From positions 2,046,001-2,110,000 of the forward strand of contig NZ_CP060711.1 of the NCBI RefSeq assembly GCF_014395425.1: a DNA stretch of 64,000 bases, read 5' to 3'. A program made the position numbers and the translations under genes. The notes under the pieces are model-generated. The model was not told the origin of the DNA. It searched no databases and worked only from the letters and a program-made list of their open reading frames with translations. This document shows positions 28,468 to 48,106 of this stretch, one piece after another. This DNA comes from Thermomonas brevis (GTDB lineage: Bacteria > Pseudomonadota > Gammaproteobacteria > Xanthomonadales > Xanthomonadaceae). How positions within the stretch are numbered: position 1 is the first letter of the stretch; each line of letters begins with the position of its first letter.

Positions 28468-28616
28468 GTAAAGCGATTAAGCAGTGCGCTTACTCGCGAT
28501 AGTGCAGGAGGCGCGTGCTTGCTGTCAAGCCATCCAGGCTTTCCGAGCGCGCCAGCCGGGATCCTCAGAAACGCCGTGGGCTGAACCCAGCCTGCGGCTC
28601 ATTGGACGATCCTACT

Positions 28617-29384: not shown

Positions 29385-31426
29385 TCCAAGTGGGGCAGCA
29401 TTTCTCGTTGGAGGGACATGCGTCACGGATCATGCGTGCGATTGGTACCTCGGAGTGGTTTGTGGAGAACCTCTCGAACGGGCGAATCTGGGAGACGACC
29501 ACCGACGAGTTGCTCGCCAAATGGCAAGCCGGGGAATTGCAGTTTCCCGGCGGTGCTGGGAACGCGATTCCCAGCGCCGCCGAGCAGACCGCCTTCAAGG
29601 CGGCGGCCGTCGATGCCTTCATGCAGTCGTACCCGGCACCCATCATCGAGCGGGCGAAGGCCAAGTTGGCATTCGTCAAGCGATTGAAAGATTTGCCGAT
29701 GACGGCCTGCACGATCACACCGCTCATCCAGGAAATCTGGTCAAACAAAGCCTTGTGGAAAGGCCAGTGCCTGTTTGCCAAGGTGCCCCATTTCACCACT
29801 GTGGCCAAATGGGTGTGCGCCTATCGCAATGCAGGCGACGACATTCGTGCTTTGGCTGATCGACACCACAACAAGGGCAATGGCAATGCCCGCTACAGCA
29901 ATGAAGTGTCGGATCTGGCCGACGACATCATCAACACGCTGTACCTAACGCTCGAGCGGCGCAGTATCGCCGATTGCCTAGAAACCCTGCGAGGCCGGGT
30001 CGCTAAGCTCAACCAGGCGCGGTTGCCGTCAGAGCAGTTGGCCCGGCCTCGGTACAAGTACCTGAAGCGGAAGATCAAAGCGCTGCCGGCCTACGACGTG
30101 TGCGTGGCCCGCTATGGCAAGCGTATCGCCGATATCCGGTTTCGGGCGGCGGGAAACGGAGTGTTTGCCGAAACGCCGTTGGCACGCGCCGCGATCGACC
30201 ATTGCCGGCTGGATCTGATCGTAGTCGATGACGAAACGGGTTTGCCGTTAGGACGCCCTTGGCTGACTCTGGTGCTAGACGAGTACAGCCGGTATGCCTT
30301 GGGCTACTACATTGGTTTCGAAGATCCCAGTTCAGTCAGCATTGCGCGCGCCTTACGCAACGCGATCATGCCTAAGGCCGATCTCCTCAAGCGCCATCCA
30401 AAGATCATTAGTAGCTGGGATGCATGGGGAACCGTGCATACGCTCGTCGCGGACAATGGTGTGGAATTCCATGGCACGGCCGTCGAAATGGCGATGGATG
30501 CCTTTGGCATGGTCGTACAGTTCTGCCCTCGCCGAAAGCCTTGGTACAAAGGCAAAATCGAGCGCTTTTTCGGTACGCTCAATACCGGGCTGTTGGCAGG
30601 CATCCCAGGTCGGACGTTCTTGAACGTGCTGGAGAAGGCCGACTACGAGCCGCTTAAGCATGCCGTGGTGGGTCTGGCCACGTTGCGTGAGGTCGTGCTG
30701 ACGTGGGTCGTGGACGTGTATCACCAAGCGCCACATCGGGCCTTGGGGAGGCCCCCGGGCGAGGCTTGGGCCGAGGCCATCTCGCGGACTGATCGCTGGT
30801 TGCCCAGTTCGTCCGCTGTCTTCGATTCCGCGTTCAGCCGTCGCGACGTTCGTGTGTTGAGCCATAAGGGAATCGAGTTCGACGGGCTGCTCTACAACTC
30901 GGACGACATGCGCTTGCTCCGGGAGCAGCACGGCATGACTCTCAAGGTCGAAATACGCGTAATGGACGAGGATCTCGGCTATCTGTTCGTAGTGGCCCCC
31001 GATGGGCGCACGGTGATCAAGGTGCCCGCGTTGGATCAGGCCTATGCCCAAGGGATGACGCGCTGGCAGCACAAGGTGTGCCGTCGGTACCAGCGACGCA
31101 TGCTGGACGATGAGCAGCGCGACATCTCGCTCACGGGTGCCAAGGAGCGCATCCGGCAGTTGATTCGCGACGATGCCAAACGCGGCAAGCGCACCACGCG
31201 CAAAAAGCAGTCCCGCTTCACGGAAGAGGCCGACGGGACGGTGCAGCTCGCCGCCTTTGCCTCGCCGCCGGCGACGAGTGCGCCGGATCCGGCTGCCGTC
31301 GCTCAGCAGACCGGCGTCGACATCCATGCCGAGTCTGCTCCTTATTCCCACACCCCGCCCGAGCAGGACACCGTCCCGATGCTCGCCAGTCGCCGGGTGT
31401 CTACCCCACTCGAGGTGTGCGCATGA
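29372..31426 (+). CDS. tnsB: TnsB/TniA-like DDE transposase
   Basis: 684-residue transposase that binds the end repeats and joins 3' ends to target DNA. After N-terminal helix-turn-helix domains, the RNase H-fold catalytic core shows Asp in AAIDHCRLDLIVVDDE, the conserved LGRPWLTLVLDEYSRYALGYY, Asp in LVADNGVEFHG and Glu in KGKIERFFGTLNTG. A Mu-type C-terminal beta-barrel follows (about 450-560). AAAGGAGG lies six bases before the ATG. Its stop overlaps tnsC (ATGA), indicating coupled translation. Confidence 0.95.
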   Translation: MAGVIQVGQHFSLEGHASRIMRAIGTSEWFVENLSNGRIWETTTDELLAKWQAGELQFPGGAGNAIPSAAEQTAFKAAAVDAFMQSYPAPIIERAKAKLAFVKRLKDLPMTACTITPLIQEIWSNKALWKGQCLFAKVPHFTTVAKWVCAYRNAGDDIRALADRHHNKGNGNARYSNEVSDLADDIINTLYLTLERRSIADCLETLRGRVAKLNQARLPSEQLARPRYKYLKRKIKALPAYDVCVARYGKRIADIRFRAAGNGVFAETPLARAAIDHCRLDLIVVDDETGLPLGRPWLTLVLDEYSRYALGYYIGFEDPSSVSIARALRNAIMPKADLLKRHPKIISSWDAWGTVHTLVADNGVEFHGTAVEMAMDAFGMVVQFCPRRKPWYKGKIERFFGTLNTGLLAGIPGRTFLNVLEKADYEPLKHAVVGLATLREVVLTWVVDVYHQAPHRALGRPPGEAWAEAISRTDRWLPSSSAVFDSAFSRRDVRVLSHKGIEFDGLLYNSDDMRLLREQHGMTLKVEIRVMDEDLGYLFVVAPDGRTVIKVPALDQAYAQGMTRWQHKVCRRYQRRMLDDEQRDISLTGAKERIRQLIRDDAKRGKRTTRKKQSRFTEEADGTVQLAAFASPPATSAPDPAAVAQQTGVDIHAESAPYSHTPPEQDTVPMLASRRVSTPLEVCA

Positions 31427-32511
31427 ACGTCGAAGTCAATGAACTGATGAAATACCTCAACCTGGTCAAGTCCATTCGGATCGACCATCTCGCGTACACG
31501 TCCATCCTGGATGCGCTGGAGGGGGCGCTTCTTTCGGTGGGGAAGACAGCGACACCGGAATGCGTGCATATCGCCGGCGGCTATCGCACCGGCAAATCCT
31601 GCGTGATCGATGATTTCATGTCCCGGTATCCGCCGGAACGGCTGGCCGAAGGGGTTCGGCGGTCGATTGTGCAAGCCACGATCCCCTACAACGGCACTGT
31701 CAAGGCGTTGGTCGAGGCGCTCTTGCGGGCGTTCGGCGACCCGCATTGGGCACGGGGCAGTGAGTCCAATCAGACCGCGAGGTTGCTGGATTTCCTCGAA
31801 AAAACCCGTTGCAAAATGATCATCCTGGATGAGTTCCAGCACCTGTGCGACAAGGGTCAGCAGAAACGGCTGGATCACACCACCGACTGGCTGAAAACCC
31901 TTATCGAGAAAAAGCCTTGGGCCTTGGTCGTGGCGGGCCTTCCCGAATCTTGTGCGATCATCAACCGCAATGGCCAGTTGCAAGGTCGCTTTGATCACAG
32001 TCTGGTCATGCCCTTGTTCGATTGGACAGTGGCCAGCGACCGGACCCAGTTCCGTTCGATCGTGCGCTCATTCGTGGCCGAGATGCACCCCTTTGAGTTG
32101 CCGGACTTGGGAGGCGAGGAACTCGCCTTCCGCACCTATCTTGCGACCAGCGGGCGCGTCGGCCTGTTCGCCAAACTGATGGATCGCGCGGTGCGTCACG
32201 CCATCCAGGGCAGGACTACTAAGATCCAGCTGACGGACCTGGCCGATGCCTATACCCGGGCGATCTGGTTCGCGTCGACCTTCCCACTCAAGGGCGGCCC
32301 CTTTCTATGTGACTTGCCGCAGGAGCGCAACGACTTGCTCGTTCGGGCGCTCGGCATGGCCAGCGACGCCAGTGCCTATCGGGAAGGCAATGGGCAGATC
32401 CACCTGCATGGGGTTGAGCCGAAAGCCTCTGTAGGCGCCAAGACGCCCCGTCAAACGAGTACGCGCAGCAAGGTGGCCAAGGACAAGGAAGACCTTCGGA
32501 GGACGTTCTGA
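31423..32511 (+). CDS. tnsC: TnsC/TniB-like AAA+ ATPase
   Basis: 362-residue regulator ATPase that connects target selector and transposase. Walker A is IAGGYRTGKSCV, Walker B MIILDEFQHL, and an arginine/sensor region follows in LVVAGLPESCAII. The ATG at 31423 overlapping the tnsB stop is preferred over a GTG two codons earlier. Its length lies between TniB and Tn7 TnsC (555 residues). The stop overlaps the tniQ start (TGATG). Confidence 0.92.
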   Translation: MNVEVNELMKYLNLVKSIRIDHLAYTSILDALEGALLSVGKTATPECVHIAGGYRTGKSCVIDDFMSRYPPERLAEGVRRSIVQATIPYNGTVKALVEALLRAFGDPHWARGSESNQTARLLDFLEKTRCKMIILDEFQHLCDKGQQKRLDHTTDWLKTLIEKKPWALVVAGLPESCAIINRNGQLQGRFDHSLVMPLFDWTVASDRTQFRSIVRSFVAEMHPFELPDLGGEELAFRTYLATSGRVGLFAKLMDRAVRHAIQGRTTKIQLTDLADAYTRAIWFASTFPLKGGPFLCDLPQERNDLLVRALGMASDASAYREGNGQIHLHGVEPKASVGAKTPRQTSTRSKVAKDKEDLRRTF

Positions 32512-33980
32512 TGCTGATCCTGACGCCAAAGCCGCATCCTACCGAATGCATTTCCGGCTATCTGTATCAACTTAGCAAGGCCAACCGTTATGACAGGCCG
32601 TCCTGGATCATCGAACCGTACAGGAATGGCTACCACGCCGATGATTACCGACGGATCACCCCCACCGTCATGCAGGAGATCGCCAACCTTACGGTAGATG
32701 AGGCCCGCCGCGTATGTGTGCGCCCTGATCGGGTGGGTGATCGAACCACCTTGCGGCTTGTGGGAACAGAGTTGCATGCGTCTTATGTCGACATGCGATC
32801 GTTCCGCATTTGCCCGCACTGTGTAGCGCAACAGGATCGCCATGAAGCTTTCTGGCATCTGCGTCTCGTGGAGTGGTGCCCGATTCACCAAGTTCGGCTT
32901 CTCACTCACTGTCAGGTATGCGGTCATCAGCTTCGTTGGAATAGGCCCGGAATCGGTCGCTGTAGTTGCGGTGCCGATCTGACGGTGCAAGCATCGCCAG
33001 AGCGATGCGAAAGTAGGCTTTCTGGGTTGCTACTCGTGTTCAGACGGGCGCTTTATGGCAGTGAATATGTCGATACACGTGTTCCAGATGAAATGTCTCA
33101 TCTCTTGCACATCGATTTGTATCGCTTGACGCGTATGGTCGAGGTTCTTGGCAATACCTTTTACTGGCAGCGTAGGCGCAACAAAAAGGAGATGCTGCTT
33201 TCGGTCAGCCTCGAAGAGCGAAAAGTGAAAATAGATCTTCTTGAAGTTGCCAAAATTCTGGTGCCATGGCCCATAAGCTTCCGGGAGGCTCTCCGCACGT
33301 ATTTTGACAAGCAGCTTTCTGACGCAGACGCTAGGAAAAGCTTCCGATTTGCGTTTCCATGGCTTGAATTCGCGCTTGGTAGGAATTTGCGGGAGCATGC
33401 CGAGCAATTGGCTTTTTTGCGCGAAGAGGCAGCCCGTTTTGGTGCTACGTATTGGACGCGGAATCAGTTGAAGCGAGGTGCTGGAGCACGGATCACTGGG
33501 GAGAACTATCGCTGGGGATCAGTGCCAGACGCAGCAGAAGTGATGGGGGTCGATCCAAGAACGTTGTTGAAACGAATTCGCGAGGGAGTTGTGCCTGTCA
33601 AGGAGTCAGCGATATATCGAAGAAGTCGGAACTACAAAGTGGACCTTAAGTGGGCTAAGGATCAGAAGTGTTCGGCGCATCCGGAAGTAAAAATTCGATC
33701 GGCTTCCGCAATGCTTGGCCTATCGCCTGATTTTTTCTCGATACTCCTAGCGGAGCAGTTCTATCGGCCGATGCTGTTGACTCGGAGACAAGGGCATTTT
33801 GCGATCGAAGACATCAGGAGATTCAAAGGACAGCTGGATGCCGTGGTGGCTCGCTATTCAATAGATGGTGAGCTTGGTGGGGTTATTTTTCACGGGAGAA
33901 GGTTAGACAAGATTCGCTCTTCAAAAGAGCGTGCCCGCGCGCTGCATGTGCTGGCCGCGAGTGAAGGACTTGCAACTTAA
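32511..33980 (+). CDS. tniQ: TniQ/TnsD-like target-selection protein
   Basis: 489-residue protein, near the size of Tn7 TnsD (508). Residues about 1-160 form the TniQ domain with a zinc-binding set: FRICPHCVAQQDRHEAFWHLRLVEWCPIH in two steps (CPHC and CPIH) and then CQVCG and GRCSCG. The C-terminal half (about 240-480) has several helix-turn-helix-like stretches (SVPDAAEVMGVDPRTLLKRI), as expected for a sequence-specific DNA binder. It most likely recognises the 3' end of nrdJb. The 3' third is clearly AT-richer than tnsA-C. Confidence 0.88.
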   Translation: MLILTPKPHPTECISGYLYQLSKANRYDRPSWIIEPYRNGYHADDYRRITPTVMQEIANLTVDEARRVCVRPDRVGDRTTLRLVGTELHASYVDMRSFRICPHCVAQQDRHEAFWHLRLVEWCPIHQVRLLTHCQVCGHQLRWNRPGIGRCSCGADLTVQASPERCESRLSGLLLVFRRALYGSEYVDTRVPDEMSHLLHIDLYRLTRMVEVLGNTFYWQRRRNKKEMLLSVSLEERKVKIDLLEVAKILVPWPISFREALRTYFDKQLSDADARKSFRFAFPWLEFALGRNLREHAEQLAFLREEAARFGATYWTRNQLKRGAGARITGENYRWGSVPDAAEVMGVDPRTLLKRIREGVVPVKESAIYRRSRNYKVDLKWAKDQKCSAHPEVKIRSASAMLGLSPDFFSILLAEQFYRPMLLTRRQGHFAIEDIRRFKGQLDAVVARYSIDGELGGVIFHGRRLDKIRSSKERARALHVLAASEGLAT

Positions 33981-34310: not shown

Positions 34311-34411
34311 CCTCGTAGCTTACGTTGGTCAAAGCGCTGGCCTTATAAGCCAGTGAAAGCACGTGCCAGATAAGCGCGGCAACGTCGGTTCGATTCCGAC
34401 CGAGGGCACCA
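34309..34411 (+). tRNA. tRNA-Ile(UAU)-like gene with 30-nt variable region
   Basis: Acceptor stem GCCCTCG/CGAGGGC, discriminator A and encoded CCA are perfect. D arm GCTT/AAGC with GTTGG loop, anticodon arm CTGGC-CTTATAA-GCCAG (anticodon TAT at 34344-34346) and T arm GTCGG-TTCGATT-CCGAC are all canonical. Only the variable region (34354-34383, 30 nt) is abnormal: isoleucine tRNAs normally have about 5 nt here. It can form its own stem (CGTGCC with GGCAACG, one bulge). The gene is 103 nt long and lies just before the exonuclease gene. Confidence 0.75.
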
Positions 34412-34431
34412 CTCCATCAAGGATGTGTGCC

Positions 34432-34926
34432 GTGCGCCTCTATCTCGACACTGAATGGGCCGATCCAGAGGCCACGCAATTGGTGAGCCTCGCGTTGGTC
34501 GATTCGACCAATCGCTACAACTACTACTGCGAAATCGATCCGCTGCCACAGCAGCCAACCGAGTTCGTGCGCGACAGGGTCTATCCGCTGTTGCAGCGCG
34601 GCCTTTGGGCCAAAGACCAACGGAAATTCTGCTTGAGCCTGCGCAATTTCCTAGATCGGTTGAAGGGTTCGCCGCGATTGATCCTGGCCGACCATCCGAC
34701 AGATTTTTCACTGCTGCGTTTTGCGCTGGCCGGCTTCGGATCCAATGTCCCGGGGCCGGTTCCCGAGTGGACGCCGATCGAAGTCACCCAGGGCGACGTG
34801 CTTGGCCACCGAGAGCTGTATTTCGATCGTCATCCCGAGGCGCGGGCCAGACGCCACCACGCGAGCGTCGATGCTGAGGCGCTGCGCTGGGCGTTTGAGT
34901 ACGTGATCGAAGGAACAATGCGATGA
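34432..34926 (+). CDS. Rv2179c-like 3'-5' exoribonuclease
   Basis: 164-residue RNase H-fold exonuclease of the DEDD superfamily. Metal ligands are visible as LYLDTEW at the N-terminus, DHPTDFSLL in the middle and ASVDAEALRWA near the end. Members of the Rv2179c group trim 3' overhangs of RNA. A GTG at 34432 with AAGGA eight bases upstream is preferred over the ATG at 34423, whose ribosome site would touch the start codon. It lies 20 bp after the tRNA-like gene, so it may be in the same transcript, and a damaged paralogue follows. Confidence 0.8.
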   Translation: MRLYLDTEWADPEATQLVSLALVDSTNRYNYYCEIDPLPQQPTEFVRDRVYPLLQRGLWAKDQRKFCLSLRNFLDRLKGSPRLILADHPTDFSLLRFALAGFGSNVPGPVPEWTPIEVTQGDVLGHRELYFDRHPEARARRHHASVDAEALRWAFEYVIEGTMR

Positions 34927-34960: not shown

Positions 34961-35463
34961 GTGACCCGCCTTTTCCTCGACTGCGAATGGGCAGGCACGC
35001 TCGATAGCGAGCTGGTGAGTCTTGCTTTGGTCGATGAAGCTGGCCGGCACCGATCCTATTCCGAAGTAAACCCGCTACCAAAGCAACCAACGGAGTGGGT
35101 TCGCGCCGTCGTTTATCCGCTGCTGGAACACGGCTATGCCGCCCACCAGAAGGTTGATTTCACCCTTGCCCTGCGCACGTTCCTGGCGCAGTTCGAGGAT
35201 CCGTTCGTGCTGTTCGACTGTCGATCAGATGGTGTCCTATTCGGCGACGCCCTATGTGGCTTCGACTTGCCTGACACGGTGCTGGCGAGGCTGCCACCGC
35301 CACCGCGAGTCAGTCAGACTTCGATCGCGCGCGATGACGTGCGGGGGGCATCGAACAGTATTTCCGCGAGCATCCCGAGCATGCTGGCCACCAGCGCCAT
35401 GCAGGCGTCGATGCTGAGGCCTTGCGATGGTCATTTGCGGCCGTGCTGAGCAAGACGCCATGA
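34961..35463 (+). pseudogene. Frameshifted paralogue of the Rv2179c-like exonuclease
   Basis: Starts MTRLFLDCEWAG and runs parallel to the preceding gene (same LPKQPTEWVR, YPLLEHG, FDCRSDGVLF spacing) to about residue 125. After a run of six G (35343-35348) the frame changes: the family C-terminus (YFREHP, GVDAEALRWSFAAVL) continues in another frame to a TGA at 35461-35463, while the original frame ends at 35449. One base gained or lost at the G-run explains this. It could be a real mutation or a sequencing error. Confidence 0.78.
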
Positions 35464-35981
35464 CCGGCAATCTCACCCTGTTCCTCGACTTCGACGGCGT
35501 ACTGCATCCGCTGTGGGAGCCGGCGCCGTATAACGACTGGACCTTGGAGCGGATCCGCGGCCCGAAGGCCTACGCCGGCCCGTTTTTCGTTCACGCGCCG
35601 ATTCTGGTTGAGCTGTTGACCGGGTATCTGTCGCACATCGACATCGTCATTTCCTCCACATGGGGCCGCAAGCGCGACCTCGCAACGCTGCAGGGGCTTT
35701 TACCGCCGCCCCTCGCCGCACGGGTCACAGATGCGGTCCACCATCGCTTGCCGCTGCTGGGAGCGATCGGCCAAGGAAAGGGCTTCATCTCACGCTGGGC
35801 CGAAATTGCCTGGTATCGCGAGCACATCCGCCCAAGCATCGGTAATCGCTGGGTGGCGATCGATGACGACGACAGCGGCTGGCCAGCCCATGCCGCGGTC
35901 CATCTGGCTCATTGCAACCGGGATCTCGGCGATCCAGTTTCGCAGCGCGTCGTCAAGGAGGCATTGGCGTGCGCTTGTTGA
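35460..35981 (+). CDS. HAD-domain protein (RNA-repair-associated type)
   Basis: 173-residue HAD-superfamily protein: motif I LFLDFDGVLHP, motif II ISSTWG, and the acidic motif IV AIDDDDSGWP. The layout resembles the HAD domain found in Swiss-Army-Knife RNA repair proteins and tRNA ligase neighbourhoods, suggesting a phosphatase acting on RNA ends; this is inference. The ATG at 35460 overlaps the stop of the frameshifted exonuclease in the repaired frame (ATGA), so the original operon was tightly packed. Confidence 0.75.
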   Translation: MTGNLTLFLDFDGVLHPLWEPAPYNDWTLERIRGPKAYAGPFFVHAPILVELLTGYLSHIDIVISSTWGRKRDLATLQGLLPPPLAARVTDAVHHRLPLLGAIGQGKGFISRWAEIAWYREHIRPSIGNRWVAIDDDDSGWPAHAAVHLAHCNRDLGDPVSQRVVKEALACAC

Positions 35982-36397
35982 TCCTTTCCGACCTGCACCG
36001 GGAGGTCTGGTATCGCTCGTAGGCCTGCTACGAGGGCATGGTGGATCCGTGCCCGCAGATCGACCTGGCCGTTTCGCAGCCGGATGTCGTAATCCTCGCC
36101 AGCGACATCGACGTGGGCGCCCGGGCCGTCGAATGGGTGGATCAAGCCTTTCCTGATTTTCCCGTTGTCTATGTGCACGGCAACCACAAAGGCTACGGCG
36201 ACAACATCGACGAAGTGCAGCAAGGGATCGCCGAGGCCTGCGCGGCGACCGGGCACGTGCACTACCTTGATCGCCGCGAGCTGGTGATCGGTGGCGTGTG
36301 CTTCCTGGGCGCCACGCTGTGGGCGGACTTCCAGCTCTACGGCAAGGGATCATCGGTGCTCGCCAAGTACGATGCTGAGCAGCTCAGATTTTCATAG
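35969..36397 (+). pseudogene. Broken metallophosphoesterase
   Basis: A GTG at 35969 with AAGGAGG upstream opens with MRLLILSDLHREVWYRS, the first metal motif (DLH) of calcineurin-like phosphoesterases, then hits an in-frame TAG at 36020. The frame continues with PDVVILASDIDVGARA (normally AGDID; one residue altered), VVYVHGNHKGYG and VCFLGATLW, then stops at 36397 where an IS3 remnant begins; the C-terminal metal motifs (GHxH) are missing. Doubly inactivated. Confidence 0.85.
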
Positions 36398-36401
36398 ACA
36401 C

Positions 36402-36482
36402 CTACGTGCCGCCTAGCGCGTAGCGCTTTTCGTACTCTACCGGTGACAGATCACCAGCGGAACCGTGGCGTCTCAGACTCAT
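36402..36482 (-). pseudogene. 3' scrap of an IS3-family transposase OrfB
   Basis: The minus strand reads MSLRRHGSAGDLSPVEYEKRY, the end of IS3-family OrfB integrase-core transposases (usual form RRHSALGDLSPVEYE), followed by a stop. Only about 27 codons remain. The scrap directly abuts the truncated phosphoesterase, so an IS3 insertion with later deletion probably removed that gene's 3' end. Confidence 0.75.
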
Positions 36483-36532: not shown

Positions 36533-36561
36533 TTGATCAATTGGGCGTGGATGGTTAAATT
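36533..36561 (+). promoter_or_regulatory. Candidate sigma-70 promoter for the methyltransferase operon
   Basis: TTGATC and TAAATT are separated by 17 bp, each 4 of 6 to consensus. The predicted start point leaves a leader of about 60 nt before the ATG at 36630. It is the only plausible promoter seen between the IS3 scrap and the operon. Confidence 0.45.
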
Positions 36562-36629
36562 GCAGATGACTAAATGGCGCTCCGGCGCAAGGTAAGCTAT
36601 TGCCGGTCGAAAAGCATGAGTCGGCCAGG

Positions 36630-37829
36630 ATGAACGATGAGCGTGTCCTAATAAAACGGCAATCGAGTACCTCAATGACACGCGCGCAAAGGAAAAAGGA
36701 CAACGACAAGCGGGCCTATACGGCGGTCGATTTGTTCAGTGGCTGCGGCGGGCTGAGTGAAGGTTTGCGGAATGCAGGATTCAGAGTAAAGGCCGCGGTC
36801 GAGATCGAGCCTAAGGCGCAGCGGACGTACCGTCTTAATCACCGCTCGGTTCGGCTGTATGAGCAAGACATCAGGAAACTTCCCGCGAAACTTGTTCTCC
36901 AGGAGACTGGACTAGAACCGGGCGAATTGGATCTGCTGGCTGGCTGTCCTCCGTGTCAAGGCTTTTCGCGTTTGCGTACTCGAAACCAAAAGACCTCCGT
37001 CAATGATCCTAGGAATGACTTAGTTCACGATTTCCTGCGTTTCGTGCGGGTACTTCGGCCGAAGACGATCATGCTGGAGAACGTTCCAGCCCTGGCGGAT
37101 GACCGTAGGTTCAAGAGCCTATGCAAAAATCTGTCGAGGCTGAAGTATGAGTTCGTAGTTCATGTTCTGAATGCCGCCGACTACGGCGTTCCACAGCGCC
37201 GTAAACGGCTCATATTGCTGGGTTCTAGAGTGCATAGCCCAGCCGTTGCAGAAAAAATCGAGCGCAGAGTCACCGTGCGGGACGTGCTTGCCAGCATAGA
37301 ACGTCCATCCAAGACGAAAGACACATTGCATGCGGTTCCGGAGAGTAGAACGCCCGCCGTACGCGAAATCATCAAGCTGATTCCGCGGAATGGGGGAAGT
37401 CGCTCGGATCTCCCTCTCGTGTATCAGCTGGATTGCCATCAGCGAAACGACGGATTTCGCGACGTGTATGGACGTATGGCTTGGGATGACGTATCTCCGA
37501 CCATCACCAGCGGTTGTATCAACCCGTCAAAAGGCAGGTTCTTACATCCCTCTCAGAATCGAACAATCACATTGCGTGAGGCGGCTCTGTTACAAGGGTT
37601 TCCGCGAGATTATAGGTTTGAAGTGTCCCACGGCAAGGAGGCTATAGCGCTAATGATCGGCAATGCGCTACCTCCCCCTTTCATCAAGGCGCATGCACAA
37701 TCACTTCGTAATGGTATCCAGATGGCAGAGAGGGCCGAGAAAAAGCCCACCAGCAAGCGGCAAGCCTTAAACCTAAGCGGACACTTGGGATGTGACCACC
37801 GTCCTAACGGTAGTCGCCGAACAGCATGA
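36630..37829 (+). CDS. C5-cytosine DNA methyltransferase
   Basis: 399-residue DNA (cytosine-5) methyltransferase. Motif I VDLFSGCGGLSEGL, motif IV GCPPCQGFSRLR with the catalytic cysteine, motif VI MLENVP, motif VIII QRRKRLILLGSR, a target-recognition region of about 100 residues and motifs IX-X with MIGNALPPP are all present. No restriction endonuclease gene is adjacent. The start is uncertain: ATGs at 36630 and 36675 are both in frame and neither has a strong ribosome site. It heads a four-gene operon and overlaps the next gene by four bases; it presumably marks self DNA for that system. Confidence 0.93.
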   Translation: MNDERVLIKRQSSTSMTRAQRKKDNDKRAYTAVDLFSGCGGLSEGLRNAGFRVKAAVEIEPKAQRTYRLNHRSVRLYEQDIRKLPAKLVLQETGLEPGELDLLAGCPPCQGFSRLRTRNQKTSVNDPRNDLVHDFLRFVRVLRPKTIMLENVPALADDRRFKSLCKNLSRLKYEFVVHVLNAADYGVPQRRKRLILLGSRVHSPAVAEKIERRVTVRDVLASIERPSKTKDTLHAVPESRTPAVREIIKLIPRNGGSRSDLPLVYQLDCHQRNDGFRDVYGRMAWDDVSPTITSGCINPSKGRFLHPSQNRTITLREAALLQGFPRDYRFEVSHGKEAIALMIGNALPPPFIKAHAQSLRNGIQMAERAEKKPTSKRQALNLSGHLGCDHRPNGSRRTA

Positions 37830-39016
37830 TCGATGGTTCCGCCAGCGATAGCGACATAGTACGGTTTTTGGGCGACATCAAGAACAATTCTCCGATGGAT
37901 GCGGCAGTGGCCGCACGATTAGCCATCGCACTCGCTGATTCTGGCCAAAGGTTTCATTCGGGATCAAATAGGGTAGCGGACGTTGCCTCCACCGGCGGGC
38001 CGACGTCGTTGTCGACTTTGTTGTGCCCACTTTTTCTACGGGCCGCAGACTGCGTAGTCGTCAAGCTCGGAGTGCCGGGTAGGCCGGCAGGAGGGATCGA
38101 TTGTTTGGCGCAGCTTCCGGGGTATAGGACCGCATTGGCCACGAAGGCTTTGGAGGCAATACTACAGAGATGCGGGTATGCACACTTCCTTGCTTCGGAT
38201 CAGTATGCCCCCTTAGATGCCAGGATGTTCCGGCTTCGCCAGCAACATGGCTATCAGGAAGTCGCAACTTTAGTAGCAGCAAGCTTGCTGTCCAAGAAAC
38301 TGGCAGTTGGCGTTAGGTATGCTGGGCTGGATATCCGAGTAGCACCGCACGGCAACTTTGGTCGCACGTGGGAGGAAGCCCGCGCTAACGCAACCTTGTT
38401 CGCGAGTGCGGCAGACGCGCTTGGTATCGATGCTCGTCCGGTGTTGACCAAGGCTTCCTATCCGTATCAACCCTACATTGGCAGGAAAGAGTCGCTGGCA
38501 GCCCTCTGGCTCTTGTTCGAATCAAGAGCGGGGCTTTGGCTATCAAGCCATCTCGAACTTTGCCGTGAATTAGCCTTGGCTTGCGTTCCTATCGACAGCA
38601 GGGACGCGATCATGCATGTCGATGTGGAATCATTGCGGGACATTTTCTACGCGAACCTAGAGGCGCAAGGAGCGTCCCCAGACGATTTCGTCCGAATAAG
38701 CGAGGCAACCTTGCATGCGCACGTCGAAACGCTGTACGCCCCTTCGGACGGGTTCGTAAGTTATGCCGTAGCGGATATCAGGCGGCTCATTGTAGAGGTG
38801 CAACGCGCGGCCGCGCCCGAAGCCTTTTTCGCTGATCCGGTAGGGATGGTGCTACTACGCCAACCCGGCGAATGGGTTCGGTGCGGCGATCCAATCGCCA
38901 CTTTGCGTGTTGAGCGACCGGTCTCCGGAGAGGACGTGGTCGCGTTCCAGGCCTTTGTCACAATCCAAGCATACCCGGAGGGGCCGGGGTTCGAGGCGGT
39001 GAAACCGAATGGGTAA
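37826..39016 (+). CDS. Divergent pyrimidine-nucleoside phosphorylase (NP-II/DeoA-like)
   Basis: 396-residue homologue of thymidine/pyrimidine phosphorylases. Counterparts seen: VASTGGPTSLSTLL (52-66), GVPGRPAGGIDCLAQLPGYRT (82-102) for the SGRG...GGT.DKLE signature, FRLRQQHG (135-142), and AASLLSKKLA (151-160). Relative to E. coli thymidine phosphorylase (from memory) the base-binding Arg/Ser/Lys are conserved with identical spacing (R138, S153, K157), but phosphate-binding Lys84 is Val53 and Ser113 is Pro84. The C-terminal PYNP_C domain (YAPSDGFVSYAVADIRRL) is present. It may bind a nucleoside without phosphorolysis. Overlaps the next gene by eight bases. Confidence 0.8.
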   Translation: MIDGSASDSDIVRFLGDIKNNSPMDAAVAARLAIALADSGQRFHSGSNRVADVASTGGPTSLSTLLCPLFLRAADCVVVKLGVPGRPAGGIDCLAQLPGYRTALATKALEAILQRCGYAHFLASDQYAPLDARMFRLRQQHGYQEVATLVAASLLSKKLAVGVRYAGLDIRVAPHGNFGRTWEEARANATLFASAADALGIDARPVLTKASYPYQPYIGRKESLAALWLLFESRAGLWLSSHLELCRELALACVPIDSRDAIMHVDVESLRDIFYANLEAQGASPDDFVRISEATLHAHVETLYAPSDGFVSYAVADIRRLIVEVQRAAAPEAFFADPVGMVLLRQPGEWVRCGDPIATLRVERPVSGEDVVAFQAFVTIQAYPEGPGFEAVKPNG

Positions 39017-42000
39017 GTATTGTTGCTTCTGTTGTCCGTTGCCCGATTACGCCGACAAGCGGCTCGAGCAGCCATGCCCAGAGTGTGGACGGGAATACGG
39101 ATTCATGCTTTCCAATCCTCCCGATTTGATAAATGACTACAAGATCATAGGTGCACTCGGCCGGGGGTTCTACGGCGCGGCTTACGTGGCGGAATGGGGG
39201 CCTTTCAAGAAGAAATTCGTCCTGAAGATATCGCCTATCGCTTTCTATAACGGCCTCAAGAAAACATCGTTTGAGGATGAAACACAACTACATAATCAGT
39301 TGGCCTCTACCGCTGAACATGTTGTTGGCATCATCAATCGATTCGATGCATCGGTTATTTTCACGGACGATGTAGGGACGAGAATCGATTGCCATGTAAT
39401 GGTTCTCGATTTTATCGACGGCGACCCCTTGGATGACTATCTCGACGGGAAGGTGGAACTAGACGTAAGGACTGTATGCCAGATTGCGATAGACCTACTG
39501 CGAATGAGGTCGGAGTTTGAGGCGCATCGACTAAATCACAACGATCTACATGCAAACAATCTGATCGTCGAGCGACTCGATTCGAAATCACGACGAGTGA
39601 ATGTAATCGCCGAATCTATTCGCGTGATGGCGATCGACTTGGGCAGCATATCGGAGGACAGCAAAAGCACCGACCAGCGACACGGCGATCTATATTTCAT
39701 CGCACAGCACGTAGATACGCTGTTAAATCGATTGCTATCAGATCTATTCGGCCTGGAAGACCGGGACTATCGTGTTGCGCTCGCATTACAAGGCATAGTG
39801 AAGGGATATCTTTCGGCGCCACAGAATGCCCGCCAACCCGCCTGCGAAGATCTCGTTAAGCAGATAACCAGCGCCTACGACCGTGCGACCCAGCCGTGGC
39901 GTCCGTGGGCCACTCCTCTGCAGCTAGCAGGATTCGCTGACCACTATAACGCGCAGACGTTGGTTTCATGGGACGTGCCGCGACTGTTGGTTGATCCGGA
40001 AGGGCAATGGCTTAACGAAGTGACACGACCGGGCCCGCAGATCATTACCGGCATGCGCGGTTGCGGAAAAACGATGCTTCTACGTGGATTGGATTTCCAC
40101 GCACGAGCCGCGAAGGAGAGCGATGGCGAGCAGTCATCTGAAACTCTAGAGCGGCTCAAGAACGATGGATATATAGGGCTGTTCGTATCGGCCCAACGTT
40201 TACTAGATCTGCGAGATTCGGTATCCAAGATCGAGCATAGACTCACCAGGCTATTCGCCAATTACGCGTTACAGGCTTCAAGAGCGTTATTGCATCTGTA
40301 TGATCTTGATCCATCCGCTGTCGCCGCAAGTGCGCACCTCACGCTGGCTAATGCGGTAGCTGACTATCTTCAGGGAGCGGATGATCTCAGGGGCGTCACG
40401 TCTATTGATGAGTTGGAGCTTCGCCTCAATAAGATCGCGGTTCTGACGTCGAAGGTAGGATCAGGTTACTCGGTCGAACAGGCGCCAGCACAGGCCTTTC
40501 CACATCTAGCCGAACAGCTTCGTCTATGCTCGTCCACTTGGAGTTCTTCGCAGGTATTCTTCCTGCTCGATGACGTATCCACTCGCTATATAGAAGTGGA
40601 GCGAGTAGAGGAGCTCCTGTCGGCATTGTTGTTCCAAAATACAACTTGTGCTTTCAAGTTCACCTCGGAATGGCAGACGATTGAGTTGGGGCTTTACTCG
40701 CCTGGTCGAGTACATCCTATTCGTATTGATCGCGACGTCTCTGTGTTCGACCTTGGGCCACTAGTACATCAGACGATAAACGGTACGGGAAAGGGAAAGG
40801 GTACGGATTTCGTATCGCAAATCCTGTTGCAACGAGCACGATTCCACGTTGCCCATCCGGCGTTCTCCCCCAAAGAGCTTTTGGGCGACGTCACACTCGA
40901 ACAGGTCGCACGTGAGATTGCTTCATCGAACATAACTTCCAAAGATAGGAAGCAGGCATACAGAGGACTTTCCTGCCTGACAAATGTCTGCGTGGGCGAT
41001 ATAGGTGACGTTATTAGGCTCTATGAAGAGATCGTCAAACGTGCATCTTCGGGAAGAACGAGAATAACCGCTCCGATCGCATCCAACATGCAGTCGGAAT
41101 GTTTTCAAGAGCTTAGCTCGCAAAGGCTATATGAGCTAAATCGTCGGGCGGGCATATACAAGGATCACGCGCTCACTTTCGCCGAAGCTGCGAACGAGTT
41201 GCTCGTTCGTTCGTATCGAAAAGGCAAGAAGCGCAAAGATGGGGCGCCAGCTCGTCTCAGGCAGTATTCTTCCATCTACGTGCGCGTGACGTCGGACGAC
41301 AAGCAAAAGCTAAAGCAACAGATTGATCAGTTGCGAGATCTCATCGACGCCGGGGTCTTCGTGTATACGGGTGGATCGGCCCGGACGAAGACTAAAGATT
41401 CGAATCCGATCCAACAATTCAAGCTCAGTTACCGCAAAATTTGTGGCCTGGCTGCCTGCATCGGGCTGGCGGATCGCGACAGGTTCGAGTTGTCCGGAGC
41501 CGACCTCGAGCAATGGCTGAATAATCCGGACAAAGAGATCCTACTTAAAAACCTATCCGAGAGTGAGGAAGACGTTGCCAATGTCGATGGGGCGAACTCT
41601 GGCATGGACATTACTTTCGATGCAGGAAGCTCGGCGCTAACGAGTACTCCTTCTCAATCCGAATTGTTCGAGAAGGAGTTGGATGTCGAGTTGAGCGCCG
41701 AGGGCACTTCGGAAGCTAAGGTCTTGGCTGAGGGCATAAACATCCAGATATCCGAATTGTCGTTGGCTCAACTAGAAGAGGTTCGAGTCGGTGCCATATT
41801 GTCGGGCCTTGGGTTCGAAGAAAGAACGTTAGAGTCGAACCGAGCTTTCTCGCTTAATTCGTCGCCAGAAGTAGTGCATCTGATCAAGTACGACGAGCCA
41901 GGGTATTCACAGGAAATACTCGATATCTGGGGGTCGACGGATGCGCGAATCATCGTGCACGATTACCCCATGCTGCCAGCGCAGATTTCTAGCGTCGACG

Positions 42001-42728
42001 GACTCGTTCTGGTAGATGTATCGGGGCTATCAAAGCCGATGATATTCAATGCAGTTAGACGCGAACTGATTGAGAAGGGACGGGTGCTGATCGGGCATGT
42101 AGGTGCTGAGTTCCATTATCCGCTCGATGAAGACTTGAAGGATCTACTTGCCGCCGAGCGTGCCAACGATCCACTACGTTTGCTGGAGAGCTTGGCCGGA
42201 GTGCTGAAAGGGGAGGTGGGGCCTTATACGTCTATCAGAATGTTGGAAGAGGACGTTGATCAATCTCGAAGTAGGGCTCTGATTGCATTCGCTTCCGCAA
42301 AGCACGAGAGACTCTTTTCTCTTATGGATCGACGAGAGTTCGATCTGGTGGACGTTATGGCGCCAAACGACGATGGGGCGAGATCGAAGGTGGCGAATTA
42401 CGCCGCTCAGTTCTTGTGCAAGGACTATCAGAACGCCAATGTTGAGCGTGTAGACACCAACGACTTGGTCTCGCTTGTTGACCGATTGGATCAACGCTAT
42501 CTTGAGCTTTACGTGGATGGTGGTGCGAATGTCGAACTCGGACTAACCGGGTCGAAGGCACAAGCCGTAGCTGCGGCCGTTCTCGCCGCACATCGCAAGA
42601 TCGCGCAGGCTTGGTATCTGAAGCCGGCCAAGTTCGATGTGTCTAGATTTTCGAAAGGAGTCGGTGCGATTCGAATCTTCGATGTGAAATTAAGGCATCA
42701 GACCGAATCGATCCGGAATCCGCGCTAG
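39009..42728 (+). CDS. Zinc-ribbon/protein-kinase/P-loop ATPase fusion
   Basis: 1239-residue multidomain protein. Residues 5-26 are a zinc ribbon (CCFCC...CPEC). Residues about 44-260 are a protein-kinase domain: glycine loop GALGRGFYG (48-56), lysine K73 in FVLKIS, catalytic loop LNHNDLHANNLIV (D180, N185) and IDLGS in place of DFG. From about 345 there is an ATPase with Walker A TGMRGCGKTML and Walker B VFFLLDDVS (516-524), resembling ORC/CDC6-like ATPases; helical and winged-helix-like parts follow to about 830. An acidic low-complexity linker (about 850-915) leads to an alpha/beta domain (about 925-1130) opening with ILSGLGFEERTLES, which I cannot name. It is AT-rich with many AUA codons. 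Confidence 0.82.
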   Translation: MGKYCCFCCPLPDYADKRLEQPCPECGREYGFMLSNPPDLINDYKIIGALGRGFYGAAYVAEWGPFKKKFVLKISPIAFYNGLKKTSFEDETQLHNQLASTAEHVVGIINRFDASVIFTDDVGTRIDCHVMVLDFIDGDPLDDYLDGKVELDVRTVCQIAIDLLRMRSEFEAHRLNHNDLHANNLIVERLDSKSRRVNVIAESIRVMAIDLGSISEDSKSTDQRHGDLYFIAQHVDTLLNRLLSDLFGLEDRDYRVALALQGIVKGYLSAPQNARQPACEDLVKQITSAYDRATQPWRPWATPLQLAGFADHYNAQTLVSWDVPRLLVDPEGQWLNEVTRPGPQIITGMRGCGKTMLLRGLDFHARAAKESDGEQSSETLERLKNDGYIGLFVSAQRLLDLRDSVSKIEHRLTRLFANYALQASRALLHLYDLDPSAVAASAHLTLANAVADYLQGADDLRGVTSIDELELRLNKIAVLTSKVGSGYSVEQAPAQAFPHLAEQLRLCSSTWSSSQVFFLLDDVSTRYIEVERVEELLSALLFQNTTCAFKFTSEWQTIELGLYSPGRVHPIRIDRDVSVFDLGPLVHQTINGTGKGKGTDFVSQILLQRARFHVAHPAFSPKELLGDVTLEQVAREIASSNITSKDRKQAYRGLSCLTNVCVGDIGDVIRLYEEIVKRASSGRTRITAPIASNMQSECFQELSSQRLYELNRRAGIYKDHALTFAEAANELLVRSYRKGKKRKDGAPARLRQYSSIYVRVTSDDKQKLKQQIDQLRDLIDAGVFVYTGGSARTKTKDSNPIQQFKLSYRKICGLAACIGLADRDRFELSGADLEQWLNNPDKEILLKNLSESEEDVANVDGANSGMDITFDAGSSALTSTPSQSELFEKELDVELSAEGTSEAKVLAEGINIQISELSLAQLEEVRVGAILSGLGFEERTLESNRAFSLNSSPEVVHLIKYDEPGYSQEILDIWGSTDARIIVHDYPMLPAQISSVDGLVLVDVSGLSKPMIFNAVRRELIEKGRVLIGHVGAEFHYPLDEDLKDLLAAERANDPLRLLESLAGVLKGEVGPYTSIRMLEEDVDQSRSRALIAFASAKHERLFSLMDRREFDLVDVMAPNDDGARSKVANYAAQFLCKDYQNANVERVDTNDLVSLVDRLDQRYLELYVDGGANVELGLTGSKAQAVAAAVLAAHRKIAQAWYLKPAKFDVSRFSKGVGAIRIFDVKLRHQTESIRNPR

Positions 42729-42747
42729 CCATAAGGAGTACGTCATC

Positions 42748-45645
42748 GTGCCAGATATCAGTCCCATTCTCCGCCGCGAACTTCGGTCCCCACAGGCAGA
42801 TGCCGCGTTGGACGATCGACGTGAGGTGCTATGTATCGCGTGCGCTGGCTCGGGGAAATCGCAAACTTTAGCGTATCGGGTGGCCAGGCTCGTCGCCAGT
42901 GGCGTTGATCCGGAGTCCATCGTCGTATTTACATTTACGGAGAAAGCTGCCGAAAGCATAAAGAACAGAACAGCCCAAGTTCTGGTGACGACTGGGCAGA
43001 GCGCGAATCTGCTCGGCAAGATGTTCATCGGAACCATTCACGGCTTCTGTCAGAATGTGCTCGGAGATGCGGATGCACGCTATCGTCAATACGACGTTCT
43101 TGATGGCAACAGATTCAAGTTGTTCCTGATCTCTCGTTACCCCAGGCTCGCGATAGGTCCTTTGAGGCGGAGGAACAACGATCGGTACTTCGACACCCTC
43201 AAGTCGATCCAGTACGCATGGAATGTACTACGGGACGAGGGTGTGACGATCGAGCAGGTGGCGCAGCTGGATCCCGAGTTGGCCGAATCCTTGAGTGCGA
43301 TCGAGCAAGAGATGGAGCGCGATCAGTTCATCGATTTCGCGTCGATGATAAGGCTGGTGGTGGATAAAGCTAGGAACGATGCCCGGGTAATTGCCCGGTT
43401 AACGCGCATACGTCACCTTCTGGTCGATGAGTATCAGGACGTTTCCGGTTCTCAAGAAGACTTGATCGCGACGATACACCGACTGGGTAGTTCGATCTTT
43501 GTAGTCGGCGACGATGATCAGTCTATCTATGGCTGGCGCGGTGCCATTGTACAAAACATCTTGGAATTCGAGACGCGCTATCCCAATGCCGGCAGGCATA
43601 CGCTGGACGAGAACTTCCGAAGCACTAGGGCCATCGTCGAGACTTCGGACGCCTTCGCCAGAGCCGAGCTTGGTGCTTCTCGACTGGATAAGGCGCCACG
43701 CCATGTCCACGATCTTCTGCCGCGTCAGGTTGGCGTCATGTTCTTCGATCAACGAGGGCAGGAAGCGGATTGGGTCGCCGATCGGATACATAGATTGATG
43801 GGGACTACGTTCGCCGAACGTGACGGAACCCAGCGCGGGCTGACGCCCGCTGATTTTGCAATCCTTATGCGTTCAACAAAGACAGCTGAACAATCCGGTG
43901 TTCCTCGTCATGTAGCTTTCTCGGAAGCTCTCGCGACGCGAGGCATAAAGTACACGCTGAGCGCCGGGGGGAATGCATTTGAAAGACCGATTCCCCGTGG
44001 GCTGCGGGAGCTGTTCCGATCTTTCGAAAATGGGAATCCGACTCGTGCGGAAGCCATTGAACTGCTCCGGGTGCATCTGATCGGAAGTTTTCCGTATGCT
44101 AATGAAGCGCGGTTCCTCGAAGTTATCACTAGATGGGGGCGTGACATACATCGGCCGCACGACGCGGTGCGCGTGCGGCTGTATCCGCAGAAATTGCTCT
44201 TGGATGTGCTGGAGGCACTTGATCTTCCCGCTGCGAACCTTAGCGCCGAAGACTTGCGTGACATCGGACTCTTCAGTCGAATTCTCCAGGATGTTGAAGG
44301 TGTGTTCCTGAGTGTGGATAGCGCGGATCGTTTCCGCTCCATCGTTCGCTTCATGGAAAATGTGGCGGAAGACGGTTACGACACGTCGACGGACGACGTC
44401 GTCGCCAAGCCGGATGCGGTGACCATCAGCACCGTGCATCAAGTGAAGGGGCTAGAGTTTCCGGTAGTTTTCGTGGTGGACGTGGTGCCAGGGCGCTTTC
44501 CGGGTAAACGCTCCAGTTACGATGGCTGGATTCCGGAAGAGCTGATCGGCAATTCTGTCGGACGTGGAGCCTACATCGGAACATCTGAGGCAGAGGCTAG
44601 GCTTTTTTACACAGCCATGACGAGGGCGGAGCGCTTTTTGTATGTGACGGGGTGCGAATCACTGCCAGGAGGAAAGCGGAGAAATAGGCAGTCGGTGTTC
44701 GCCGCGAGGCTGGGACACGATGAGCTGACTAGAGATTCCGCACTAGAACCCGAGGCGCTGACTCAATCTCCTCCACGGGCAAGAGTCGATAGCAGCATGC
44801 TGCCTACGTCATATAGCGACGTTAAATATTACTTGCGCTGTCCGGCGGACTATCGATTCCGAAAGGGATATGGGTTCAGTCCACCCGTGCCAGAACTCTT
44901 CGGATATGGTCGCGTGGTTCATGTCGCAATTGAGAAGCTGCATGAAATCTACTTTGGCCATGCACCGACACGCGAGGAGGCTGCAGAGATTGCGGCTGCG
45001 AACTTCCATTTGAAGCATATCGCGCCGAGTCGCGATCCAGATACACGCCCCGGTGCCTACGAGAACGCGAAAAGTCGCGCGCAGGAGATCGCGGCTGAGT
45101 ATGTTGATAGTTATGCGAATGATTTTTCGCATAGGCGCCAAGTTGAGGTGCGCTTTGAGTTGACGGCGCAGGGGTGCTTGATAACTGGCGCGATCGATTT
45201 GCTTATGCGTTATTCGGATCATGGACAGATTCTGGAAGCTCAGGTAATCGACTTCAAGACTATGGAAGGCGGAGAAGACGTACTTGCCAACAGGGATCTG
45301 GAATGGACCGAGATGGCATTGCAGGTACAGCTCTATGCCAAGGCCGCTCGGGAGGTTCTTGGCGAGGATGCGGCAACGGGATCGATTCACCTGTTGAAAG
45401 ACAACCAACGGGTCGAAGTTCCGATCGATGAACATTCGGTTGATAACGCGATCGCCAACGTAGAGTGGGCGGTGGCCGGCATACTTGCGAATGATTTTCC
45501 AATGCGACCGGAGCGACGAAAATGCGAGGAATGCGATTTCAAGCAAATTTGTGCGCGAAGACCCCAGGATTTCAGGCCTGATATGGTTCTGCCGCCATCG
45601 ATCTCGACTCCGGCCGGCCAAATGGCGGCACAGTCGCTGCGTTAA
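42748..45645 (+). CDS. UvrD/Rep-type helicase with C-terminal Fe-S RecB-family nuclease
   Basis: 965-residue superfamily-1A helicase. Motif I CAGSGKSQTLAYR, Ia FTFTEKAA, II HLLVDEYQDV, III VVGDDDQSIYGWRGA, IV LDENFRST, V STVHQVKGLEFPVVF and VI LFYTAMTRAERFLYV are complete. Residues about 690-945 form a PD-(D/E)XK nuclease: GRVVHVAIEKLHE, Asp in ITGAIDLLMRY, the core VIDFKTMEG, and QVQLYAKAA. Four cysteines, one in YLRCPADYRF and three in KCEECDFKQIC, suit a 4Fe-4S cluster as in AddB/Cas4. A GTG start at 42748 follows AAGGAG; the gap to the kinase gene is 19 bp. The likely effector of the cassette, cutting foreign DNA. Confidence 0.93.
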   Translation: MPDISPILRRELRSPQADAALDDRREVLCIACAGSGKSQTLAYRVARLVASGVDPESIVVFTFTEKAAESIKNRTAQVLVTTGQSANLLGKMFIGTIHGFCQNVLGDADARYRQYDVLDGNRFKLFLISRYPRLAIGPLRRRNNDRYFDTLKSIQYAWNVLRDEGVTIEQVAQLDPELAESLSAIEQEMERDQFIDFASMIRLVVDKARNDARVIARLTRIRHLLVDEYQDVSGSQEDLIATIHRLGSSIFVVGDDDQSIYGWRGAIVQNILEFETRYPNAGRHTLDENFRSTRAIVETSDAFARAELGASRLDKAPRHVHDLLPRQVGVMFFDQRGQEADWVADRIHRLMGTTFAERDGTQRGLTPADFAILMRSTKTAEQSGVPRHVAFSEALATRGIKYTLSAGGNAFERPIPRGLRELFRSFENGNPTRAEAIELLRVHLIGSFPYANEARFLEVITRWGRDIHRPHDAVRVRLYPQKLLLDVLEALDLPAANLSAEDLRDIGLFSRILQDVEGVFLSVDSADRFRSIVRFMENVAEDGYDTSTDDVVAKPDAVTISTVHQVKGLEFPVVFVVDVVPGRFPGKRSSYDGWIPEELIGNSVGRGAYIGTSEAEARLFYTAMTRAERFLYVTGCESLPGGKRRNRQSVFAARLGHDELTRDSALEPEALTQSPPRARVDSSMLPTSYSDVKYYLRCPADYRFRKGYGFSPPVPELFGYGRVVHVAIEKLHEIYFGHAPTREEAAEIAAANFHLKHIAPSRDPDTRPGAYENAKSRAQEIAAEYVDSYANDFSHRRQVEVRFELTAQGCLITGAIDLLMRYSDHGQILEAQVIDFKTMEGGEDVLANRDLEWTEMALQVQLYAKAAREVLGEDAATGSIHLLKDNQRVEVPIDEHSVDNAIANVEWAVAGILANDFPMRPERRKCEECDFKQICARRPQDFRPDMVLPPSISTPAGQMAAQSLR

Positions 45646-46984: not shown

Positions 46985-47014
46985 CTGGAAGCTACAGGGG
47001 TGCCGGCGATGAAA

Positions 47015-47077
47015 AAAAGGTGTCAGGGACAATTTCGAACAAGAAAGGTGTCGCAGAAAAGGTGTCAGGGACAATTT
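47015..47077 (+). repeat. Two copies of a GGTGTCAGGGACAATTT repeat
   Basis: AAAGGTGTCAGGGACAATTT occurs at 47016-47035 and 47058-47077, with a partial copy (GAAAGGTGTC) between. Short dispersed repeats with this wording are frequent in Xanthomonadaceae-like genomes and are often near REP-type tyrosine transposases; that link is from memory. Confidence 0.75.
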
Positions 47078-47855: not shown

Positions 47856-47962
47856 ACGTTCCTCCAGAGGACATCAAAGACGGGAAAGGGTTGGACCGCC
47901 CCGCATTCCACAGACAGGTAGTCAGAATACAGACCTGCCGGTTTGAAAAAAGGTGTCTGAAA

Positions 47963-47982
47963 AAAGGTGTCAGGGACAATTT
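47963..47982 (+). repeat. Third copy of the GGTGTCAGGGACAATTT repeat
   Basis: Exact 20-nt match to the copies at 47016 and 47058, preceded by a partial copy (AAAAAAGGTGTC). With the other copies it brackets the HEPN-like gene. Confidence 0.75.
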
Positions 47983-48106
47983 CGAAAGGTGGGCTAGTCC
48001 CGCCATTTCCGAAAATAGGGGTCAAAGTCGGCTTTACTCTAACGATGTGAGCAAAGTGGCGCCGCTACACTGCGAACCCGATCCTGCTTCCCACAAAGGA
48101 ACATCC

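Follow-up and report, generated by a model that had tools for sequence, protein, structure and literature searches.

A predicted pseudo-thymidine-phosphorylase and a CARF kinase form a conserved core linked to C5 methyltransferases in a putative mobile defence cassette of Thermomonas brevis

Results

A four-gene cassette lies in a 24-kb insertion

The 64,000-nucleotide stretch analysed here (the window) carries four adjacent genes encoding a C5-cytosine DNA methyltransferase, a DeoA-like protein, a kinase-ATPase and a UvrD helicase / PD-(D/E)XK nuclease (Table 1). As originally predicted, the genes are on one strand, with overlaps of 4 bp and 8 bp followed by a gap of 19 bp, and they are AT-richer than the host (GC of 52-57% compared with 71% in window bases 1-22000). 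None of the four ORFs contains an internal stop. The first listed start lies 67 bp downstream of 36533, the position at which the cassette was first proposed to begin.

Table 1. Positions of the cassette genes, their domains and neighbouring features in the window
Feature	Position	Strand	Remarks
TnsA-like gene	28515-29384	+	PF08722 2.8e-07; upstream of cassette
TniA gene	29372-31426	+	upstream of cassette
TniB gene	31417-32511	+	upstream of cassette
TniQ gene	32511-33980	+	upstream of cassette
Neighbouring ORF pair with similar N-termini, and HAD_SAK_2 RNA-repair-type protein	34363-34926, 34961-35449, 35427-35981		HAD_SAK_2 1.1e-15; first ORF of the pair weakly RNase AS-like (E 0.015)
Metallophosphoesterase-like ORF	36038-36397		PF12850 E 0.032; ends just 5' of cassette
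Stretch resembling the end of an IS3-type transposase gene	~36398-36470		judged by eye
C5-cytosine DNA methyltransferase gene	36600..37829	+	409 aa; TTG is the first listed start, inner starts possible
DeoA-like gene (pseudo-thymidine-phosphorylase)	37826..39016	+	396 aa
DVASTGG (canonical motif DKHSTGG)	37979..37999	+	in the pseudo-phosphorylase gene
Kinase-ATPase gene	39009..42728	+	1239 aa
Protein-kinase domain	39138..39704	+	residues 44-232; PF00069 3.7e-05, 23.7 bits, below the 31.7 cut-off
ORC-CDC6-like AAA region	39936..41267	+	residues 310-753; PF24389 7.7e-24; GMRGCGKT and LLDDVSTR
Two CARF-like Rossmann domains	41784..42686	+	about residues 926-1226
UvrD helicase / PD-(D/E)XK nuclease gene	42748..45645	+	965 aa, GTG start
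Direct repeats, right part of the island	47013-47077 and 47949-47986		27 bp (identical), 34 bp (91%)

The right-hand flanking gene was found in 4 of 25 genomes of the same genus (own included; E <= 1e-50). In the other three of these (G006, G018 and G021), it is about 0.1, 0.5 and 0.9 kb from the left-hand flanking gene, compared with 24.2 kb in the window, so that window positions 26842-51033 represent a 24-kb insertion relative to these genomes. Insertion of the region carrying the cassette is therefore supported. That the cassette is cargo of a Tn7-like transposon, as had been proposed, is plausible but not proven: genes for TnsA-like, TniA, TniB and TniQ proteins lie upstream, whereas a search for transposon ends found no convincing terminal inverted repeats. 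No tRNA genes were found in the 64-kb window.

The DeoA-like protein is a predicted pseudo-phosphorylase

The outer genes of the cassette encode enzymes with recognisable signatures. The methyltransferase matches PF00145 (3.8e-61) and has the PCQ, ENV and QRR motifs, and the helicase-nuclease matches PF00580 (6.7e-49) and PF12705 (7.7e-25), with the hallmark motifs and the Cas4/RecB-like cysteines present.

Over its whole length, the DeoA-like protein has the fold of a thymidine/pyrimidine-nucleoside phosphorylase. Its best NCBIfam model scores 98.6 bits against a curated cut-off of 269. The Lys-His pair of DKHSTGG, which we take to be catalytic and phosphate-site residues of the phosphorylase, is replaced by V/I/L/F and A/P in all 63 rows with letters at this position (64 aligned), and a working phosphorylase was rejected on this ground. 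An Arg, a Ser and a Lys, presumably the base-binding residues, are invariant. A separate phosphorylase alignment comprises the window and 26 of the best 120 of 863 hits. The host genome has a separate canonical thymidine phosphorylase in which the Lys-His pair is kept. Combined, these comparisons establish the protein as a predicted pseudo-phosphorylase that has lost the putative catalytic and phosphate-site residues and kept those for base binding. The original prediction was right in calling the protein phosphorylase-like and had missed the loss of the catalytic residues; its idea of a nucleoside-binding sensor fits this loss and may apply.

The kinase-ATPase carries a C-terminal pair of CARF-like domains

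The kinase-ATPase matches the PADLOC model PDLC01925 (CARF-STK-AAA, CARF6) over residues 1-1227 with 1365.9 bits and is built of a Zn ribbon, a kinase, an ORC-CDC6-like AAA region and tandem CARF domains. Residues K73, E91, D179, N184 and D210 of the kinase are invariant in 32 sequences (the window and 31 of the best 120 of 757 hits). The protein had been proposed to act as an ATPase/kinase switch. The kinase and AAA motifs are indeed present; however, the CARF region had been overlooked, and the family is already catalogued in PADLOC and was described in 2014 (Makarova et al., PMC4012209, from the part of the paper available).

In the fold test, the C-terminal region was recognised as a CARF Rossmann fold. 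The first 27 rows of a structure search with this region consisted of 22 CARF/CRISPR-associated or ring-nuclease chains, four Cap5 (SAVED) chains and one SiRe_0806 chain with cA4, and unrelated folds appeared from row 28 on. The CARF signature [DN]x[ST]xxx[RK] is fitted by DVSGLSK in the first domain and is not followed letter for letter by ELGLTGSK in the second, whose sequence profile retrieved nothing from the PDB at a threshold as loose as E 10. An alignment of the CARF region comprises the window and 33 of 40 full-length loci.

CARF sensors are known chiefly for reading the cyclic oligoadenylates of type III CRISPR, and the best structural matches of the region bind cyclic oligoadenylates or cyclic dinucleotides. 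These matches would suit a CARF pair that reads a cyclic nucleotide from a cyclase encoded in trans, as in type III CRISPR or CBASS, and so would a GGDEF-domain protein, possibly the maker of a nucleotide signal, encoded directly 3' of the CARF kinase in one relative (L031:7707-8984). However, neither RAMPs (PF03787) nor a SMODS cyclase (PF18144), the two markers searched, were found in the host genome, in which the controls matched, and we regard a trans-encoded cyclase as highly improbable. From the same two results, the ligand in this host is probably not a cyclic oligoadenylate made by Cas10; dependence on type III CRISPR was rejected for this host as no RAMPs were found.

The core pair recurs with C5 methyltransferases across phyla

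Relatives were collected by a pattern scan, which misses some of them, over 84,980 species, each represented by a single genome. The resulting 46 CARF-kinase loci belong to Pseudomonadota, Bacteroidota, Actinomycetota, Acidobacteriota, Thermodesulfobacteriota, Nitrospinota, Planctomycetota, Bacillota, archaea and others. A pseudo-phosphorylase gene adjoins the CARF kinase gene in 37 of 45 testable loci (L025 left out), directly upstream on the same strand in 36 and downstream on the other strand in L037; no phosphorylase homologue was found in the other eight (L038, L039, L044, L048, L049, L058, L059 and L066). The best 120 kinase and the best 120 phosphorylase homologues have 33 contigs of equal size in common (mean 0.39 and highest 3 with shifted sizes), an indirect sign of co-location. 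In two of the eight loci without a phosphorylase homologue, a putAbiC-type gene lies just 5' of the CARF kinase, in the usual place of the pseudo-phosphorylase: L038:8739-9986 and the matching gene of L039 (L038 scanned, L039 assigned by cluster). At L066:10142-13696, a divergent archaeal (Methanoplasma) CARF-kinase homologue, 25% identical, occurs without a phosphorylase.

With a profile built from the BLAST cluster itself, and counting the genes of L029 and L045 that the gene caller had hidden, a C5 methyltransferase was found within the fetched flanks of 36 of the 46 loci, and in 22 of the 26 loci with at least 9 kb on both sides. Among the ten loci in which none was found, six are ended by contig edges and four are not (L038, L046, L063 and L064, the last two being copies of one protein). 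Across 100 genomes, the base rate was 94 matches at E <= 1e-20, and 55 of the genomes had at least one; this amounts to about one C5 methyltransferase per 4 Mb, and the chance of meeting one is thus well under 1% per 24 kb. The order methyltransferase-phosphorylase-kinase is contiguous and co-directional in 14 loci, as in the window, and a Vsr-type nickase cluster (one member scanned) is present in 16. By a rough proxy for adenine-type methyltransferases, the NPPY-type motif, three genes were found over the 46 loci, two of them 7.9 and 8.9 kb away (L023 and L037) and one within an MzaC-like protein (L038).

At E <= 1e-40, the PADLOC kinase model matched 1 of 369 genomes of the class (own) and 2 of 398 of the phylum (own and G729), with some genomes belonging to both samples. 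At E <= 0.001, 39 of 99 genomes match (own included), but these matches were not counted as those listed outside the window cover only model positions 22-203, the kinase. One plasmid record holds a relative; 29 stretches of viral contigs fit the pattern, none of them a relative. Combined, these comparisons show that the predicted pseudo-phosphorylase and the CARF kinase form a conserved core that is tied to C5 methyltransferases and not to any one effector.

A small gene precedes the methyltransferase at L023:5522-5887, L033:349-570 and L041:4543-4764; it is weakly ribbon-helix-helix-like in L023, and tblastn found no such gene in the window. An ordinary restriction-modification system with an attached regulator, in which the core pair would adjust how the methyltransferase and nuclease are expressed or assembled, spare the host and sense the nucleotide state of the host and not the phage, could account for these low-copy controller-like genes, as well as for the tight methyltransferase link and a link to NaeI in two loci. 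We nevertheless consider it unlikely: in our judgement a kinase-AAA-CARF protein of 1239 residues would be a high price for regulation alone, and the matching CARF proteins of solved structure are readers of infection signals.

Effector partners of the core change

The genes beside the core were assigned to classes by scanning one or a few members per cluster, with the remainder placed by BLAST clustering. By these assignments, Mza genes lie beside the core in at least eight loci (L032, L034, L035, L036, L038, L043, L045 and L046), and the proteins of L035 score as MzaB, C, D and E. A MORC-type ATPase, scored as REase_II, was found in six loci and an OLD-like AAA ATPase in four. Histidine-kinase/receiver pairs are present in L028, L050, L054 and G729 (L070), with a related gene in L053; DISARM DrmA and DrmB in L040 and L055; NaeI in L059 and on a Loktanella plasmid (L068); and BrxL in L027. 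In L040 (4162-9992), TniA/B/Q-like genes (TniQ weak, 34 bits) are directly 5' of the pseudo-phosphorylase and CARF kinase, with DISARM on the 3' side.

A UvrD/PD-(D/E)XK protein accompanies the core in the window and in one of 46 other loci, L041, where members of the four families are found together and the helicase is encoded on the opposite strand; the original prediction, which would have fallen had the four families not co-occurred elsewhere, is thus not refuted. Equal-size contigs common to lists of the best 120 homologues numbered 5 for helicase and kinase (shifted mean 0.5, highest 3), 7 for helicase and phosphorylase (shifted mean 0.38, highest 4) and 3 for all three proteins, and one shared length, 534,782, belongs to Variovorax boronicumulans in both lists. 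The helicase family of the window therefore appears to recur with the core.

On a kinase tree of 44 rows, built quickly, with long branches and without short or broken kinase genes except L041, the partner labels require 20 changes, compared with a least possible 7 and a shuffled mean of 25.9, and none of 200 shuffles was as low; these label counts are rough since the 16 rows labelled as having no partner include incomplete loci and L027, L047 and L067, which have BrxL-like or histidine-kinase partners. Partners show some clustering on the tree, yet have been swapped many times. A fixed four-gene system was rejected since the partners vary, the helicase-nuclease being one choice among several.

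Change of neighbours around a kept core would also be expected of back-up abortive infection, in which the effector would be the core pair, halting growth once the neighbouring restriction fails. The intact kinase and AAA motifs and the putAbiC-type gene in the place of the phosphorylase in L038 agree with such a role. However, the family searches recognised no domain of a toxic effector in the two core proteins, and the persistent methyltransferase link would be left unexplained, which makes this alternative very unlikely.

Discussion

The proposal of a modification-based defence has held: the core recurs beside C5 methyltransferases, Mza, DISARM, NaeI and other defence genes, and a methylation-linked defence role of the cassette is well supported by these genomic associations. 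The proposal of a new four-gene system was right in that, among the matches listed, none of the named PADLOC systems covers the cassette as a whole, and wrong in that the unit is not fixed at four genes. On gene content, the unit is the predicted pseudo-phosphorylase and CARF kinase core, in most loci accompanied by a C5 methyltransferase; the helicase-nuclease belongs to a set of alternative partners.

We favour, by a narrow balance of probability, a mobile restriction system linked to 5-methylcytosine and fitted with a plug-in sensing switch. The methyltransferase would mark self DNA, as is usual for such parts, and the Zn-ribbon/AAA part would assemble on DNA. The CARF pair could then sense infection through a nucleotide cue, with the pseudo-phosphorylase assisting as a receptor for pyrimidine nucleosides or nucleotides, and the kinase/ATPase would turn binding into activation and license the partner effector, here the UvrD/PD-(D/E)XK protein, which would degrade unmarked DNA.

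Virus-induced modified nucleotides were suggested as CARF ligands in 2014 (PMC4012209, in the sections available). This suggestion, together with the tie to cytosine methylation, leads to a speculation that we rate as quite unlikely, namely that the core pair is a shared guard of 5-methylcytosine-linked restriction, which might recognise free modified or foreign pyrimidine nucleotides (5-hydroxymethyl- or uracil-type) from phages that replace C or T, and then switch on the adjoining effector. If true, CARF signalling would here act independently of CRISPR, with a metabolic enzyme that has lost its activity serving as the receptor, and would counter the main evasion route of such restriction.

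In the literature searched, we found neither the CARF-kinase family joined with a phosphorylase homologue nor the CARF kinase as a shared module of C5-methyltransferase defences, parts of which may be noted in the 2020 CARF classification, outside the search; no pairing of a CARF domain with thymidine phosphorylase was found either. The phosphorylase of DefensePredictor, in the part of that source available, is a purine phosphorylase domain and differs from the DeoA-like protein. A CARF pair that is joined to a kinase and an ORC-type ATPase and accompanied by a predicted dead nucleoside enzyme recurs across phyla as an add-on to unrelated C5-methyltransferase-linked defences, here in a host for which the type III CRISPR marker search came up empty, which suggests that some published defence systems may carry an unlisted control module. 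The ligand of a non-CRISPR CARF, and the reason for its tie to cytosine methylation, become testable questions.

Comparison with known systems reveals partial likenesses. The cassette holds both a methyltransferase and a nuclease, which in type II restriction-modification are of one specificity; specificity is not readable from sequence. The best PADLOC match of the methyltransferase is DruM2 of Druantia (3.6e-90), but the helicase is UvrD-type and not the DruE-type found beside DruM. The helicase matches GajB of Gabija (1.5e-47), but no OLD/TOPRIM family (GajA-type nuclease) is listed for the four proteins. The mad6 kinase model of MADS matches the kinase part weakly (2.9e-08); in contrast, no other mad model is among the 18 families listed for the kinase-ATPase, none is listed for the phosphorylase-like protein, and none further is among the best 25 of 62 PADLOC families for the methyltransferase or the best 25 of 67 for the helicase. 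No Hma model is among the matches listed for the cassette proteins, with the same limits for the methyltransferase and the helicase. BREX PglW has a kinase. It is likewise a multidomain defence enzyme with a STAND/ORC-Cdc6-like AAA, described in the part of the source available as inactive with degenerate Walker motifs (PMC12839542); in contrast, the cassette protein has these motifs and an added CARF pair. The kinase-ATPase shares the Zn ribbon, the kinase, a P-loop with an internal Arg and CARF with the CARF-STK-AAA family, although its model has two CARF-like domains. The words phosphorylase and methyltransferase are absent from the main text on that family (PMC4012209), and the gene neighbourhood described here does not appear in the sections available. 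Finally, the effectors of Mza, DISARM, NaeI and MORC-type restriction are absent from the cassette, which has UvrD/PD-(D/E)XK instead, whereas the genes of these systems adjoin the same core in its relatives.
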